From a bacterium (GTDB lineage: Bacteria; JAJVIF01; JAGGVT01), in contig JAGGVT010000079.1 of NCBI GenBank assembly GCA_021157815.1, positions 1 through 5,608 of the forward strand: a stretch of DNA of 5,608 nt, written 5' to 3'. Made by a program: the position numbers and the translations under genes. This document shows, piece by piece, positions 280-5,608 of the stretch; within the stretch, counting starts at the first letter, position 1; each line of letters starts with the position of its first letter. A model generated the notes under the pieces. That model worked only from the letters and a program-made list of their open reading frames with translations, did no database searches and was not told the DNA's origin.

Positions 280-1503
280 CTATCGCACAAGACTCACAAT
301 CTCATCCGCGGCATTCTCAGCCGCAAATCCCAGATTAACCAGCTCCCTGTCGAGTATCTCATCACGATGACTCTTAACTTTCAAAGTCAATTCATCAACC
401 CAATCAGCCTTTTTCAGCAAACTGGCAAGACTCTCCGATGACCTCACAGAAAGCGCGGCTGGTTCAAGATTCAACCGATAATTCACCTTTGTATAATCAA
501 GCGTGATAACAGGCACATTATGTACCAGCGATTCCAGCGCCATTGTTGAATAGACTGTCATAAACGCGGATGCTATCCCCAGGAATTCATACGGCGAGAA
601 TTCATCCTTTGCCAGATGCACATTTTCAGATGGATTCCATTCGATGAATTTACGCCGGTACATTTCATAATTGTTGTCAGGATGCAATTTGATTATCAAT
701 TCAACGTTACTCAAATCGCGAAACAGGTCAACAAGGCTTTTTACAAGTTCTATTTCATCATCCAGTGAGAGAACATCATGCTTGCTAAAACACTGCATGC
801 CGAAAAGCAGAACAGGTTTGCTCGGAGAAATCCCCAGAAATCCCTGGATTTTATCAGCATAACCATGGGGTAGGGGAGCAGCGGAGTCATACATCGGATT
901 ACCAACTGTCGCAAGTTTATCCCGATGAATCCCCTTCCTGATTAACTGATCACGCACCTCATTTCCAAACAGCAGAATTTTATCAACACGATTTGTACCA
1001 AACGGTGAGAAGAAATAGCCGGCACCATATAATCCGCGAGACCATTCGTTCGCAATCGCGCTTATCTTACTGATAATGCAGGTTTTCGCTTTCTCTATGA
1101 AATTCGCATCCTGCTCAATCCTGAGGCCATCCTGCATAAGGACAGTTTTGATTCCTCTGTGTTTTGCCTCCTCGATAAAAATATCCTCCACATACGATGC
1201 TGCCCCAAGAAGAATTACAGATGGGTTTATCGTTTTGAGCAAGTCGCGAACTGCTGGCACGGTTTCTTTCAGTATTTTAAATCGCTCTTTGCGGCCAACC
1301 TTAAAAAGGTTCGTATCCGGGGCGGCTGAAAGTTCGATATACGCATGGCGAGATTGTTTCAAGACCGGTGTTGCGTCCTGATTCAGAATCGAATCAAGCG
1401 ATACAAAGGTAATTTGCATGTTCATGTCAGCGAGTTTGTCCGCTATCGGAATGAAAACCTTCGCTCGGTTTTTCGCATTTGCTGTTATAAGAATTTTTGA
1501 CAT
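280..1503 (-). CDS. GT-B-like surface-carbohydrate transferase, candidate nonulosonate transferase
   Basis: A 407-residue soluble protein with no signal peptide or membrane span, looking like a two-domain GT-B fold. N-terminal half: Rossmann-like ILITANAKNRAKVFIPIADKL (4-24), a second strand near VILLGAAS (96-103), then VLMQDG at 121-126. Linker: LLFGNEVRDQLIRKGI (177-192) and VGNPMYD (200-206), a pattern shared with UDP-GlcNAc 2-epimerase-like and CDP-glycerol transferase-like proteins. C-terminal half: KLHPDNN at 272-278 and TVYSTMALESLVHNVPVI at 316-333. HP and Ser-Thr motifs, plus an acidic-Gly motif like the QDG at 124-126, are also features described for bacterial sialyltransferases (families GT38 and GT52). 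The position after neuA, neuB and a flippase supports a sugar transferase acting on the exported glycan. A glycerophosphotransferase-like role or a non-catalytic epimerase relative are alternatives. The start is fixed by the TAATG overlap. The family is fairly clear; the substrate is not. Confidence 0.6.
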   Translation of the reverse strand: MSKILITANAKNRAKVFIPIADKLADMNMQITFVSLDSILNQDATPVLKQSRHAYIELSAAPDTNLFKVGRKERFKILKETVPAVRDLLKTINPSVILLGAASYVEDIFIEEAKHRGIKTVLMQDGLRIEQDANFIEKAKTCIISKISAIANEWSRGLYGAGYFFSPFGTNRVDKILLFGNEVRDQLIRKGIHRDKLATVGNPMYDSAAPLPHGYADKIQGFLGISPSKPVLLFGMQCFSKHDVLSLDDEIELVKSLVDLFRDLSNVELIIKLHPDNNYEMYRRKFIEWNPSENVHLAKDEFSPYEFLGIASAFMTVYSTMALESLVHNVPVITLDYTKVNYRLNLEPAALSVRSSESLASLLKKADWVDELTLKVKSHRDEILDRELVNLGFAAENAADEIVSLVR

Positions 1504-3074
1504 TAGTTTCGCCTGTTTACCTCAAACGACAGAAGGTTATACTTCCGAATTGCCAGAACAATCACTCCACAAAACAAAAGCGCACAAAGCATCTCGATTA
1601 AAAAAACGCCGATCCCAAACATCGTCAATTCAGAATTAATCATGCTCAACTGCGGTTGCCATTTGAAAAATCCTGTTACTCCATGAGCGCTGAAATAATC
1701 AGCCCAGAATTTATCGAGTATCATTATATCCGCAAAAACGACAACCGCGAACACAATAAACTGAAGCGCGAACAAGCGCAGGTAGTATCGAACATAGGCT
1801 GCCAAACTCCCGAAATATTTCGTTATCGCGTAATGGATCAGAAACACGCTGTAGATAAAATATGAAATTGTCGTGCCAAGAGCGATTCCCTCAATGAACA
1901 TTCCCCTGACCTGCCAGAAATACCAGTTCATTGACAGGTTTAAAAGCAGCGCGCCGACCTGATACAGCACCATGCGTTTACGGTCATCCATCGCGATGAG
2001 GAAATACATGAACATATTCACGATGCACCAGAAATACATTCCGGGGATTAATATTTTCGCCGCCGGGATTGTCGGGGTGTATTTAGCCAGAAGAATCGGG
2101 ATAATAAAATCGAGCGAGAGATACATCATTGCACCAAGAGGCAGTATTGCCTGAATGACCGTGGCTGTCGGCGGGAACACAAATTCAGCGACCTTTGTGC
2201 CGTCCTTTGTTTCACCGTACCGCTGCAGCATAAGGGGGAATATGACCCATCCAACCGCGAACGGTACGAAATAAAGCAGTCCCGCGACCTGGCTCCCCAG
2301 AAGGTAATACCCCATTCCCTCATCCTGAAAGAACCAGTACGCCATAAACTTGTCGCCATTTTTAAAAAGCGAATCCATCAGAAAGCAAATGAAAATGGGG
2401 ATTCCAAGGCGATATAGATATTTCACCTCAGGGATATTCCATCTGACGCCGATTTTTTCAGGCGCGCTGAAATAGGCATACCCGATTGTCGCGGCGAATG
2501 TAAGGAACAATCCGACAAACAGTCCAATCAGCGCATACTCGACACACGGCGAAATGCTTACGAAATAATACACAGGCCCGACACGAAGAACGAATTCAAA
2601 CGTGCCGAAAATCAATTCCATTACATTGATTCTACCGAATTCTTTCGTCACCCTGAAAAAAGTCCGGTAGTATTCAACAAGCATCTGAAGCGGAAGCGTG
2701 AACGCGAGAAGGACATACGCCCACCGTTTTTCAAACGACGCGTTGTTATTCACAATCGCGAACAGGATAATCAGCACCATGGCGGCAAGGGTTATCATCA
2801 TGCTGAACGTATATGATGAATCACGGATATTACCAGCTCTTGTTTTGTCGCGCTTTCCGATTTCCACCGGATACTGTTTGCCAAAAGCGTTTTCCAGCCC
2901 CAGATGAAGAGATGCGCCGTACGTTAAAATTAAAAAGAGGAATCCAAACGCGCCGTATCCGGCAACAGTGAAAAGTTTCGCGATTACAAAATTGCCGGCG
3001 ACATGCATTGCCGTTGCATATATCTTGACAAGGAAATACTGGGAGGAGCGTATTGCTATGGCTTTGCTTTCCAT
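1503..3074 (-). CDS. Wzx-type polysaccharide flippase (MOP superfamily)
   Basis: Integral inner-membrane protein expected to move lipid-linked oligosaccharide across the membrane for assembly outside. At 523 residues it is slightly longer than the usual 420-500. Reading the sequence gives about 13-14 hydrophobic spans, near residues 15-35, 40-60, 90-108, 118-136, 158-176, 180-202, 222-240, 258-282, 300-320, 340-362, 368-385, 395-418, 430-455 and 484-508. Basic loops such as GKRDKTRAG (73-81) fit cytoplasmic positions. N-terminal GYGAFGF at 39-45 and a Gly/Pro/aromatic-rich core are typical of the polysaccharide-synthesis/MATE-like fold. ATG at 3074 is the only start possible: an in-frame TGA lies 8 codons upstream with no start codon between. 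No SD is visible, so translation probably depends on coupling to the phosphatase gene 10 nt before. Its TAA overlaps the next ATG. The glycan carried is unknown. Confidence 0.88.
   Translation of the reverse strand: MESKAIAIRSSQYFLVKIYATAMHVAGNFVIAKLFTVAGYGAFGFLFLILTYGASLHLGLENAFGKQYPVEIGKRDKTRAGNIRDSSYTFSMMITLAAMVLIILFAIVNNNASFEKRWAYVLLAFTLPLQMLVEYYRTFFRVTKEFGRINVMELIFGTFEFVLRVGPVYYFVSISPCVEYALIGLFVGLFLTFAATIGYAYFSAPEKIGVRWNIPEVKYLYRLGIPIFICFLMDSLFKNGDKFMAYWFFQDEGMGYYLLGSQVAGLLYFVPFAVGWVIFPLMLQRYGETKDGTKVAEFVFPPTATVIQAILPLGAMMYLSLDFIIPILLAKYTPTIPAAKILIPGMYFWCIVNMFMYFLIAMDDRKRMVLYQVGALLLNLSMNWYFWQVRGMFIEGIALGTTISYFIYSVFLIHYAITKYFGSLAAYVRYYLRLFALQFIVFAVVVFADIMILDKFWADYFSAHGVTGFFKWQPQLSMINSELTMFGIGVFLIEMLCALLFCGVIVLAIRKYNLLSFEVNRRN
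1512..1514 (-). promoter_or_regulatory. SD-like AGG and TAATG overlap coupling flippase and transferase
   Basis: On the minus strand the flippase ends AAC AGG CGA AAC TAA, and the next gene's ATG shares the final A of the stop (TAATG). The AGG inside the last flippase codons is 8 nt from that ATG. This fixes the transferase start and indicates translational coupling. Confidence 0.65.
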
Positions 3075-3084
3075 GAGGGATTTT

Positions 3085-3594
3085 TCAGGATTGTGATTTC
3101 ACTTTCGCGCGCATAATCAGATTTGCGATTTCCCTGATTACTCCCTCCCCGCCTTTTTTCTCACAGACATATCCGACGATGTTTTTAATCTCATCCTCGG
3201 CATCGGACGGGCAGAAAGAGAATCCTGCCACTTCGAGCACTTCAAGGTCGTTGATATCATCGCCGACATACGCCGCATCGCCGGGAGTAAGTTTCAAATC
3301 ATCGAGAAGTTTATTAAATGTTTCGAGTTTTTGTTTAATGCCCTGAAAACAGTGTTCTATATTTAATTTCCGCACGCGCCTTGCAACAATGTCTGTTCGT
3401 TCACGAGTAATAATCGCTGTAGGGATCCCAAAATTCTTTTGCAACAGCACAATACCCATGCCGTCCCGCGTGTTGAATTTCTTAATCTCATCGCCGGATT
3501 CCGTATAATACATTCCGGCATCGGTCAACACACCATCGACATCGGTAACCAGAATTTTTATGTTCGTAAAATCATATTTTGTATTCACAATCAC
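3085..3594 (-). CDS. KdsC/YrbI-type HAD phosphatase, probable nonulosonate-9-phosphate phosphatase
   Basis: Type C0 HAD hydrolase without a cap domain, expected to act as a tetramer and to release phosphate from a keto-acid sugar phosphate. The 169 residues match the family's usual length. HAD motif I is DVDGVLTD with Asp18 nucleophile and Asp20 acid/base; KKFNTRDGMG at 38-47; motif II Thr63 in IITRERT; motif III Lys89; motif IV GDDINDLEVL with Asp112, Asp113 and Asp116; C-terminal KKGGEGVIRE at 146-155. Glu65 and Lys76 align, from memory, with Glu56 and Lys67 of Bacteroides KDN-9-P phosphatase, the residues reported to separate it from KDO-8-P phosphatase. The neuA/neuB context agrees. The usual ITGE-type motif II is ITRE here. 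The start is GTG at 3594 or 3588; an in-frame TAG just upstream excludes a longer protein. It ends TGA, 10 nt before the flippase. KDO-8-P phosphatase (kdsC) is the alternative. Confidence 0.88.
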   Translation of the reverse strand: MIVNTKYDFTNIKILVTDVDGVLTDAGMYYTESGDEIKKFNTRDGMGIVLLQKNFGIPTAIITRERTDIVARRVRKLNIEHCFQGIKQKLETFNKLLDDLKLTPGDAAYVGDDINDLEVLEVAGFSFCPSDAEDEIKNIVGYVCEKKGGEGVIREIANLIMRAKVKSQS

Positions 3595-3650
3595 AACCTA
3601 TTAACCTATTAACTTACTAACCTATTAACTTACTAACCTGCTAACCTGCT
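3595..3650 (-). repeat. Proximal 8-bp tandem array (7 units) running into the phosphatase start
   Basis: Seven uninterrupted octamers on the plus strand: aacctatt 3 times, aacttact twice, aacctgct twice; these are the distal array's units in a shifted phase plus one private variant. On the coding strand they read AGCAGGTT, AGTAAGTT and AATAGGTT. The private AATAGGTT form lies only next to the phosphatase gene, and the last copy ends directly at its GTG start. The AGG of this last unit is the only SD-like signal before that gene, so the array may double as the translation-initiation region. Confidence 0.93.
3597..3599 (-). promoter_or_regulatory. SD-like AGG supplied by the repeat, before the phosphatase gene
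   Basis: On the minus strand the last octamer reads AATAGGTT and is followed by GTG ATT GTG. AGG lies only 2 nt from the first GTG (3594) but 8 nt from the second GTG (3588), a normal spacing. This favours 3588 as the true start, two codons shorter. The next upstream AGG lies one unit (8 nt) farther back, 10 nt from the first GTG, so it could serve that start instead. Confidence 0.45.
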
Positions 3651-3740
3651 AAATGTAACCCGGCGTCCCTTCGCCGGGGTAATACATAAATTCACCACTA
3701 TCTTTCCCGGTTAATGAGAAACCGCGCTACTTACTGTTTT
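3651..3740. other. Non-repeat island splitting the octamer array
   Basis: A 90-bp segment between the two octamer blocks without their periodicity. It holds a GC-rich hairpin (3659-3678), a weaker inverted repeat (CGGTT 3708-3712 with AACCG 3720-3724, 7-nt loop), and on the minus strand a 12-codon frame MYYPGEGTPGYI (3687 to 3649) whose TAG stop falls in the neighbouring octamer. The frame is preceded by GGTGA 5 nt upstream of its ATG. Its codons overlap the hairpin, so the peptide may be chance. It may be an older insertion into the array, or the linker between two independent expansions. Confidence 0.6.
3659..3678. repeat. GC-rich hairpin inside the array island
   Basis: CCCGGCG (3659-3665) and CGCCGGG (3672-3678) form a perfect 7-bp stem with a 6-nt loop TCCCTT. 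No T run follows on either strand, so it is not a canonical Rho-independent terminator. It could be a dispersed palindromic (REP-like) element, an RNA processing or stability hairpin between the neuB and phosphatase cistrons, or a pause site. It stands out as a strongly GC-rich element in an AT-rich gap. Confidence 0.6.
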
Positions 3741-3912
3741 CTAACTTACTAACCTGCTAACTTACTAACCTTCTAACTTACTAACCTTCTAACTTACTAA
3801 CCTTCTAACTTACTAACCTTCTAACTTACTAACCTGCTAACTTACTAACCTGCTAACTTACTAACTTACTAACTTACTAACTTACTAACCTGCTAACTTA
3901 CTAACCTGCTAA
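3741..3912 (-). repeat. Distal 8-bp tandem array (21 full units)
   Basis: From 3741 to 3908 the plus strand parses with no slips into 21 octamers: ctaactta 12 times, ctaacctg 5 times, ctaacctt 4 times; a partial unit (ctaa) then runs into the neuB stop codon at 3913-3915. On the transcribed coding strand the units read TTAGTAAG, TTAGCAGG and TTAGAAGG. Units mostly alternate, giving a 16-bp higher-order repeat: 3757-3820 is a perfect fourfold 16-mer and 3853-3884 is four identical octamers in a row. Every unit has TAG on the coding strand and, since 8 is not a multiple of 3, three successive units stop all three frames. There are no spacers and no dyad symmetry in the unit, so it is not CRISPR. 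Function unknown. Confidence 0.97.
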
Positions 3913-4962
3913 CTATTCTTCAAAATACTCCCACAGCAATATCTTATCAGCGTCGATATTCTTCTTCGCCACCTTACCTATCAATTCACTCAGTTCCGAT
4001 GGCGGAATGCCGATGCCGGGGCATTTTGTGGTCAGATGCTCCGCTGTTATTTTAGTCCCCGCCATTATCGGTTTTGCTGATGTCAAACTTTTCTTGAGTT
4101 TCTGCGCAACTGGATCCTCAGATTTCATTTTAGTTTTCTCACTATTTCCAAACGATGCTTCAGCCGCGCGGATATCGCGAATCATTTTCTGCAACCCGCC
4201 GGGTTCAAGCGATGCCGCATGGTCGCCGCCTTTCATCGTGCGGTCAATTGTGAAATGCCGTTCTACAACTCTTGCTCCCAATGCGACCGCGGCAATCGGA
4301 ATCGCGATTCCCCGCTCATGCCCTGAGTAACCGATTGGGCAATCGAATTTCTCCAGGTAGGTTTTAATCACGTTCAGGTTGATATCCTCGAAACTGCTTG
4401 GATATGTGGATGTGCACTGCAATATTACAATATCTTCAGTGAACTTTTTTACAAGATCGTAGGCTTTTTCAACGTCAGATATATCTGACATTCCGGTTGA
4501 TACAATCATCGGTTTGCCCTTTTTCGCGACATGCTCCAGAAACGGAAAGTTGTTAATATCAGCGGATGCTATCTTGAAAGCCACAATGTCGAGTGAGTCA
4601 AGAAAATCCGCTGAATCCTCATCCCACGGTGACGCGAGAAATATCAATCCCTTTGATTCAGAATATTTCTTCAGGAATCTGAATTCATCTTCAGTCAACT
4701 CAAGCGCCATACGATGTTCTCCGTACGTTTTACCGAATGAATTTGGGTTTTCATACGGCTTGTCAAAGCCCTCCTGTGTTAAAAGGCGTTTGATATTTCT
4801 TTTTTGGAACTTGACACAGTCAGCCCCGGCGAAAGCCGCGATATCAACAAGGCTTTCAGCGATTTTAACATTGCCCTGATGGTTTATTCCCGCTTCCGCG
4901 ATTATAAAAGTCGGATCATTCCTGCCGATCCATTTGTCACCTATTTTCACTCGATTTGACAT
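3913..4962 (-). CDS. neuB: N-acylneuraminate / nonulosonate synthase, NANS-like (probably 9-phosphate type)
   Basis: Condenses an N-acetylmannosamine-type (or mannose-type) sugar, probably as the 6-phosphate, with phosphoenolpyruvate to make a nonulosonic acid; cytoplasmic. The 349 residues match the family's full length. The TIM-barrel NeuB domain spans about 20-265, with FIIAEAGINHQGN at 19-31, CVKFQK at 49-54, KTYGEH at 78-83, NNFPFLE at 137-143, STGMS at 155-159, QCTSTYP at 182-188, GYSGHE at 211-216 and ERHFTID at 234-240. His215 and His236 match the metal ligands of Neisseria NeuB. The C-terminal antifreeze-like (SAF) domain spans about 293-349. The KTYGEH and NNFPFLE blocks and the GGDHAASLEPGGL segment (245-257) resemble human NANS and Bacteroides KDN-9-P synthase more than Neisseria NeuB, from memory of those sequences. 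Position 314, Arg in Neisseria NeuB, is Cys. ATG with a strong RBS sets the start. Its TAG stop abuts the 8-bp repeat array. The family is certain; the exact sugar is inferred. Confidence 0.95.
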   Translation of the reverse strand: MSNRVKIGDKWIGRNDPTFIIAEAGINHQGNVKIAESLVDIAAFAGADCVKFQKRNIKRLLTQEGFDKPYENPNSFGKTYGEHRMALELTEDEFRFLKKYSESKGLIFLASPWDEDSADFLDSLDIVAFKIASADINNFPFLEHVAKKGKPMIVSTGMSDISDVEKAYDLVKKFTEDIVILQCTSTYPSSFEDINLNVIKTYLEKFDCPIGYSGHERGIAIPIAAVALGARVVERHFTIDRTMKGGDHAASLEPGGLQKMIRDIRAAEASFGNSEKTKMKSEDPVAQKLKKSLTSAKPIMAGTKITAEHLTTKCPGIGIPPSELSELIGKVAKKNIDADKILLWEYFEE

Positions 4963-4981: not shown

Positions 4982-5608
4982 CTAATTGCCATTTGCCTGA
5001 TTTTCAGTTGCATCATCAGGTTGTTGTTCATTTATGTTTTCATTTTTCATTTCGTGTTTTCTTATGAAAGAATGATGTGAACCCTGCATTATTTCACTCG
5101 CCAGCCAGAAATCGAACTCACTGTCAATCTCCATGCTGAAATGATCCTCCATGACAAACATCACAATATTCCCGCCAAGGCGATTATGCTCGTTCATCAG
5201 GATATCTCGCCTGGTAATATAAATCGCGCCGTTCTCCCTGTAAAGCACCTCGTCCTCTTTCATGTCCTGTCGTCTTGGGCGTTTTTTGTAATCGTATGTC
5301 GGAATCCCCTTGTGCGAATCCTTTTCGCGTTTCCAGAAAAAAGCGTGAGACTTGCATACGCTTAAAAGCGAATCAGCGTTGGTGTCGTTAAAAAGCATGA
5401 GAGCGTTGTCGATATCCTCGTCATTTCTCAACGGGCTTGTGCACTGTAGAAGAAGAACCGTTGCAACTTTCTCGCCGGATTCCTCAATCGTTTTGACGAC
5501 ATGTTCCAAAGCCGGTTCAGTAGGGGATTCATCCGTCGCCAGATCCTCGGGACGCTGAATCGCCTCAGCTCCATTCGCGCGGCTGACAGCAAGAATCTCC
5601 TCATCATC
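4982..5608 (-). CDS. neuA: CMP-nonulosonate (CMP-sialic acid) cytidylyltransferase, N-terminus beyond right edge
   Basis: Activates a nine-carbon sialic acid-type sugar with CTP to give the CMP-sugar donor; cytoplasmic. The frame is open from the last base of the window, so 208 residues are visible; a TTG near 5509 is an internal Leu codon, not the start. NeuA proteins are usually about 220-235 residues, so the N-terminal nucleotide-binding loop is missing here. In the visible fragment: an N-terminal DDEEILAVSRANGAE stretch typical of the family, LQCTSPLR at about residues 54-61, RRQD at 112-115, ENGAIYI at 125-131, and EIDSEFDF at 160-167, whose acidic residues match the family's metal-binding D-I-D motif (the first Asp is Glu here). 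A hydrophilic Asn/Gln/Glu-rich tail of about 30 residues follows the fold. It ends TAG, 19 nt before neuB. The family call is firm; the acceptor could be Neu5Ac, KDN or legionaminic acid. Confidence 0.93.
   Translation of the reverse strand, partial: DDEEILAVSRANGAEAIQRPEDLATDESPTEPALEHVVKTIEESGEKVATVLLLQCTSPLRNDEDIDNALMLFNDTNADSLLSVCKSHAFFWKREKDSHKGIPTYDYKKRPRRQDMKEDEVLYRENGAIYITRRDILMNEHNRLGGNIVMFVMEDHFSMEIDSEFDFWLASEIMQGSHHSFIRKHEMKNENINEQQPDDATENQANGN

Follow-up and report, generated by a model that had tools for sequence, protein, structure and literature searches.

We analyzed a 5,608-nucleotide stretch of DNA (hereafter the window; contig JAGGVT010000079.1 of assembly GCA_021157815.1), in which an array of eight-base tandem repeats separates two genes of a nonulosonate operon. 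Open reading frame (ORF) calls, made simply by longest frame, and domain or profile matches placed this operon on the minus strand of the window. It begins with a CMP-nonulosonate cytidylyltransferase gene (neuA/pseF-like, 4982..5608), which gave a weak match and is truncated by the window end, and continues with a neuB-like nonulosonate synthase gene (3913..4962; PF03102 and SAF). These are followed by genes for a KdsC/KDN-9-P-type HAD phosphatase (3085..3594; candidate GTG starts at 3594 or 3588), a polysaccharide flippase (1503..3074; PF13440), and a glycosyltransferase-like protein (280..1503) with weak matches to polysialyltransferase and surface carbohydrate families. No tRNA was found in the window. 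An earlier note on this DNA, prepared from the sequence alone, had described the other gaps of the operon as 19 bp or less, and this was correct: neuA and neuB are 19 bp apart, the phosphatase and flippase genes 10 bp apart, and the flippase and transferase genes overlap. The only large gap lies between neuB and the phosphatase gene (3595-3912).

This gap contains two blocks of octamers with the coding-strand consensus TTAGNARG, both on the minus strand. Block 1 (3745..3912) consists of 21 strict units, 168 bp in total, and abuts the TAG stop codon of neuB (3913-3915). Block 2 (3597..3652) consists of seven in-phase units, four strict TTAGNARG and three TTAATAGG, and is followed on the coding strand by TT and then by GTG at 3594, the first possible start of the phosphatase. 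Thus, the array touches the neuB stop and the phosphatase start and has no phase slip inside either block, as the earlier note had stated. Its count of 28 octamers was also right, whereas its description of them as filling almost the whole gap was not; the units add up to 28 × 8 = 224 bp, or 70% of its length, owing to a 92-bp non-octamer spacer between the blocks. Block 1 shows a higher-order 16-bp alternation, TTAGCAGG/TTAGTAAG and TTAGAAGG/TTAGTAAG, and the Tandem Repeats Finder score for the 16-bp form of the gap array was 250. The analysis confirmed that the array is real and beyond chance. No reading frame was present in the array, no promoter-like site was found in the neuB-phosphatase gap, and a search of Rfam gave no genuine match. 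The AGG of the last octamer (window 3588-3600) lies approximately 8 nt ahead of the alternative phosphatase start at 3588 and could be a candidate ribosome-binding site.

The gap has just two inverted repeats, and no hairpin was found within the octamer blocks. The octamer array proper therefore lacks the palindromic hairpin of repetitive extragenic palindromic (REP) sequences and bacterial interspersed mosaic elements (BIMEs). The spacer (3653..3744) was compared with the repeat families of the genome and contains two REP palindromes in an inverted, BIME-like arrangement. On the coding strand, GTAGCGCGGTTTCTCATTAACCGGG comes first, a GTAG-tagged REP_C copy (3706..3730, minus strand; family consensus GTAGCCCGGTTTCTCATTAACCGGG), and GTAACCCGGCGTCCCTTCGCCGGG comes after it, a GTAA-tagged REP_A copy (3655..3678, plus strand) that would form a terminator-like hairpin on the coding strand. 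Nearly all copies of REP families A, B, and C have GTAA or GTAG directly ahead of the stem. REP_A has 132 copies in the genome when up to two mismatches are allowed and zero copies in three genomes of the same class, and no REP was found in a search of viral contigs. The genome also carries nine Y1_Tnp genes (PF01797) resembling REP-associated tyrosine transposases (RAYTs). The Y1 gene of locus L273 has REP_A-type copies at both sides, related copies are present at the L274 locus, and one Y1 gene has both REPs and an octamer array nearby. Because the spacer hairpins are dispersed, multicopy GTAG/GTAA-tagged palindromes in a genome with nine Y1_Tnp genes, one of them REP-flanked at L273, the spacer is a REP pair that fits the GTAG-tagged REP/RAYT class (PMC3733652) and lies within, or between, the octamer blocks. 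At a further locus, L275, inverted copies of a 22-bp repeat (1391-1412 and 2032-2053; GGTGCCGCCCACACATCACGTC) flank a Y1 transposase gene. This repeat has 53 copies in the contig sample described below, and the flanking pair probably represents the terminal repeats of an element of the IS200-like or RAYT type.

The octamer is not specific to this operon. A search for (TTAGNARG)3 in the 3.2-Mb source genome gave 735 and 812 matches on the two strands, 1,547 in total including overlapping matches inside arrays, compared with 0 for the reversed control, and a BLAST search of the gap sequence against its own genome gave 72 matches. In a 1.49-Mb sample of contigs, 64 blocks had four or more units (median 15); they occupy about 0.6% of the sequence and extrapolate to roughly 140 blocks in 3.2 Mb. 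The arrays are mostly intergenic, and any overlap with an ORF is at most 24 bp. Thus, the second option of the earlier note, an intergenic repeat that this lineage carries throughout its genome, proved to be the appropriate description. The 23S_rRNA_IVP (TIGR02436) four-helix-bundle genes were considered as a source or dispersed carrier of the arrays and rejected, as the genome has just one clear copy; that gene lies between two inverted octamer arrays (L064 831-1587, genome contig C6).

Octamer arrays are abundant in the source genome and absent from the other genomes sampled, 59 and then 385, including three of the same class. In these three, the nearest neuB homologues were just 33–34% identical and stood in other gene settings, so that there was no syntenic gap for comparison. 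When 84,980 species were scanned, the matches listed included arrays with this consensus scattered over Pseudoalteromonas, Bacteroidota, Thermoanaerobaculales, Moorena, Cloacimonadota, and other taxa; the scan sought TTAGNARG alone and says nothing about a preference for this octamer over others. Six of these array-bearing genomes were checked and had far fewer matches than the source genome. The Pseudoalteromonas loci (L080-L133) carry homogeneous TTAGCAAG or TTAGAAAG arrays, several of them with a similar 3' flank, cactagactgcctaccacttgtgtcaag. A text search of the literature for the octamer found nothing relevant.

The position of the arrays in the 1.49-Mb sample follows the upstream gene. 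Of 43 arrays with a same-strand 5' neighbor, 35 start between −20 and +15 nt from the stop codon of that neighbor, and the TAG of the first unit is the gene's own stop in ten arrays. Among the 37 sense arrays for which both neighbors are known, 31 start no more than 15 nt from the upstream stop; when arrays were placed at random in these gaps, the mean was 6.7 and the maximum 16 in 20,000 trials. Sense arrays outnumbered antisense arrays in co-directional gaps (29 vs 6, p = 1.2e-4). The median distance from an array to the next gene was 217 bp in the first sample. Gap type carried little weight, as about 5% each of co-directional, convergent, and divergent gaps contain an array. In other taxa, 17 of 31 arrays lie no more than 20 nt from a same-strand stop, a count that rests on crude gene calls and includes some mutually orthologous loci, and the sense bias was absent there (10 same/same vs 18 opposite/opposite). 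As REPs show a like stop-proximal placement and GTAG-type REPs often provide the TAG, the arrays may simply occupy a general niche, in which case their placement would not be specific to the octamer.

Sense orientation and stop anchoring would also be expected of a functional 3'-end element selected at many genes, such as an antisense Rho loading site that blocks antisense transcription or a sense RNA that binds a regulator. The antisense RNA of block 1 is unstructured (minimum free energy 0), C-rich, and Rho-site-like; C accounts for 6.8% of the array sense strand, so that the antisense strand is poor in G and shows a strong C>G bubble, and Rho is present in the genome. But this composition is a trivial outcome of the unit, Rho is near-universal, only about one gap in twenty carries an array, and the same-class genomes have none. 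We consider selection for such a function unlikely.

The source genome and an independent IMG/VR contig provided sister arrays. The IMG/VR contig (L137) and genome contig C167 (L258) differ by 30 single-nucleotide polymorphisms over 11.6 kb. The sole internal indels between these two assemblies are 120 bp and 40 bp, that is, 15 and 5 units, each inside an octamer array, and three of the five arrays are identical. Both contigs carry a prophage-like head operon encoding terminase, portal, protease, capsid, and adaptor proteins (L137 5298-10648; L258 about 5500-12100), in which octamer arrays follow the stops of three genes, those for portal, protease, and capsid. In the portal gap, an additional repeat of roughly 100 bp is interleaved with the arrays. 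Orthologous arrays of Pseudoalteromonas, with flanks 87–97% identical, have 7, 10, 10, and 21 units, and another set has 8 and 19. The earlier note had proposed that such an array can change length by slippage. The whole-unit differences in both the sister and the orthologous arrays support this variability; as short-read collapse could produce the same pattern in L137 and C167, these differences are support and not proof.

The same concern applies to the family as a whole, as the source genome is a fragmented metagenome draft in which several arrays are at contig ends. Eight of the 64 arrays lie no more than 100 bp from the end of a sampled stretch, mostly a contig end, so draft lengths may be collapsed, and both length differences between L137 and C167 could be collapses. 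An assembly artefact is nonetheless extremely improbable, given the many loci with differing flanks and unit orders, the recurrence of the same arrays in the independent IMG/VR contig, and the similar arrays in isolate genomes. Contig-end arrays L181, L208, and L257, and likewise L235 and L259, have long unit orders in common; these are probably single arrays on adjoining contigs, the assembly having broken at the repeats.

Unit order was also informative. Adjacent units were identical at a frequency of 0.19, compared with 0.30 expected, and second neighbors at 0.42, indicating a 16-bp higher-order unit. Long unit words common to different arrays did not exceed a Markov null; this argues that the arrays evolve locally, and copying of whole arrays between loci was rejected. 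The simplest account is that arrays, once seeded, change in place by slippage or recombination. The seeds themselves might be mobile, inserted or copied at stop codons by a RAYT-like Y1 transposase or another enzyme, as REPs are placed. The nine Y1_Tnp genes, the one flanked by REP_A, the one near both REPs and an octamer array, and the presence of arrays in the prophage are all compatible with this. But the octamer has no hairpin or terminal structure, no target-site duplication was seen, and the arrays have no long haplotypes in common and thus no sign of recent full-length copying, so that an active element of this type is very doubtful.

The genes upstream of the arrays include purH, those for glutamate dehydrogenase, RsgA, HydF, PrmC, an aminotransferase, transketolase, glycosidases, and a kinase, and phage head and capsid genes. 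They are mostly housekeeping, signaling, or phage genes, and the repeat family showed no apparent link to surface genes, although this is not a formal enrichment test. The earlier note had suggested that the array sets the relative output of neuAB and the downstream genes. As a dedicated contingency locus, it would phase- or dose-vary the phosphatase, flippase, and transferase, and hence the surface nonulosonate glycan, through unit-number change. The array does sit inside a nonulosonate operon, its last units border the phosphatase start, and sister arrays differ by whole units. But arrays of this family also stand behind housekeeping and phage genes, which argues against a surface-glycan contingency system, the gap has no promoter-like site, and the array is outside any reading frame, so that an on/off frameshift is impossible. 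A dedicated glycan phase switch is therefore not supported, and we regard it as quite improbable; a side effect on the coupling of neuB and the phosphatase is possible.

Overall, the array probably belongs to a family of octameric short tandem repeats spread over the whole genome. This family would have expanded within the lineage and persisted for the most part just after stop codons, in sense orientation to the upstream gene. We favor a largely passive, REP-like intergenic repeat held in place by coding constraint, with small effects on neuB/phosphatase coupling possible. Arrays would grow and shrink by slipped-strand mispairing or by recombination between identical unit words. On the 5' side, the coding sequence would hold them at the stop; since all frames of the array include stop codons, an array can begin only at or after the stop of the gene. 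On the 3' side, they would be tolerated up to the start signals of the next gene. REP palindromes use the same post-stop niche, one pair sitting inside this array. At this locus, where the gap separates neuB from the phosphatase gene, the REP hairpin may give some termination or processing. Since the last units border the phosphatase start, a change in length may slightly alter downstream expression, with no dedicated switching role.

Several points weigh against this reading. Slippage alone fails to explain one consensus at so many separate loci. The anchoring is tighter than mere tolerance of insertions in the 3' flank predicts, so that targeting or selection may also be at work. Arrays are about as frequent in divergent gaps as elsewhere (8 arrays in 157 divergent gaps), so 3' ends are not the sole niche. 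The length differences come from loci other than the neuB-phosphatase gap. An undescribed class of stop-codon-targeted tandem element might be involved, in which an enzyme would start or lengthen runs of TTAGNARG exactly at the ends of genes, both cellular and prophage. The consensus would then have been reached repeatedly in Pseudoalteromonas, Bacteroidota, Thermoanaerobaculales, Cyanobacteria, and Paceibacterota, since the process and not ancestry would fix the unit. We consider such a class distinctly unlikely.

Genome-wide short tandem repeat families of bacteria are known but poorly explained. In the family described here the rule is clear: sense arrays start at the stop codon, behind dozens of the genes sampled and also within a prophage head operon, and lengths differ by whole units. 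The family is thus well suited to distinguishing passengers under coding constraint from REP-like mobile parts and from functional 3'-end elements. The analysis also corrects the interpretation as a glycan phase switch, which is attractive but lacks support.

Classical phase-variation repeats are located within the reading frames of surface genes or in their promoter spacers (PMC4679880). The octamer arrays resemble such repeats, for example, the tetranucleotide contingency loci of Haemophilus, in their whole-unit length change, and differ in sitting between genes of every function. The GTAG-tagged REP/BIME and RAYT systems occupy the same niche, no more than 20 bp from the 3' end of the upstream ORF, with a variable distance to the next gene and the TAG often supplied (PMC3733652). 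REPs of Pseudomonas entomophila and Sphingomonas wittichii are stop-proximal, and those tagged with GTAG often supply the TAG (PMC3733652). The octamer differs in being tandem and non-palindromic, and the spacer hairpins alone belong to the REP class.

Cyanobacterial short tandemly repeated repetitive (STRR) sequences are dispersed intergenic arrays of short units; long simple sequence repeats (LSSRs; Mrazek et al. 2007, as described in PMC4679880) form a related group. The octamer family agrees with STRR/LSSR-type repeats in its dispersed arrays beyond chance, mostly intergenic location, and unit-number polymorphism in sister and orthologous arrays. LSSRs, as described in PMC4679880, are likewise dispersed intergenic short-unit arrays, sporadic over phyla; heptamers predominate among them, and the account of LSSRs in that paper does not describe stop anchoring with sense bias. 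The TAACTGA heptamer repeats of Beggiatoaceae, Cyanobacteria, and some Bacteroidetes are similar in that a single short unit occurs genome-wide, almost entirely intergenic, patchy over unrelated phyla, and oriented to genes (PMC4679880). Close strains differ in these arrays mostly by whole-unit steps, and in Maribeggiatoa 2–6 copies stand just ahead of start codons (PMC4679880). That unit is 7 bp and precedes starts, whereas the unit here is 8 bp, with a median of 15 units placed after the stop of the upstream gene, so that the arrays do not belong to the TAACTGA-type start-codon repeats. Among the known genome-wide short tandem repeats, the octamer family is thus a variant with REP-like anchoring at stop codons.
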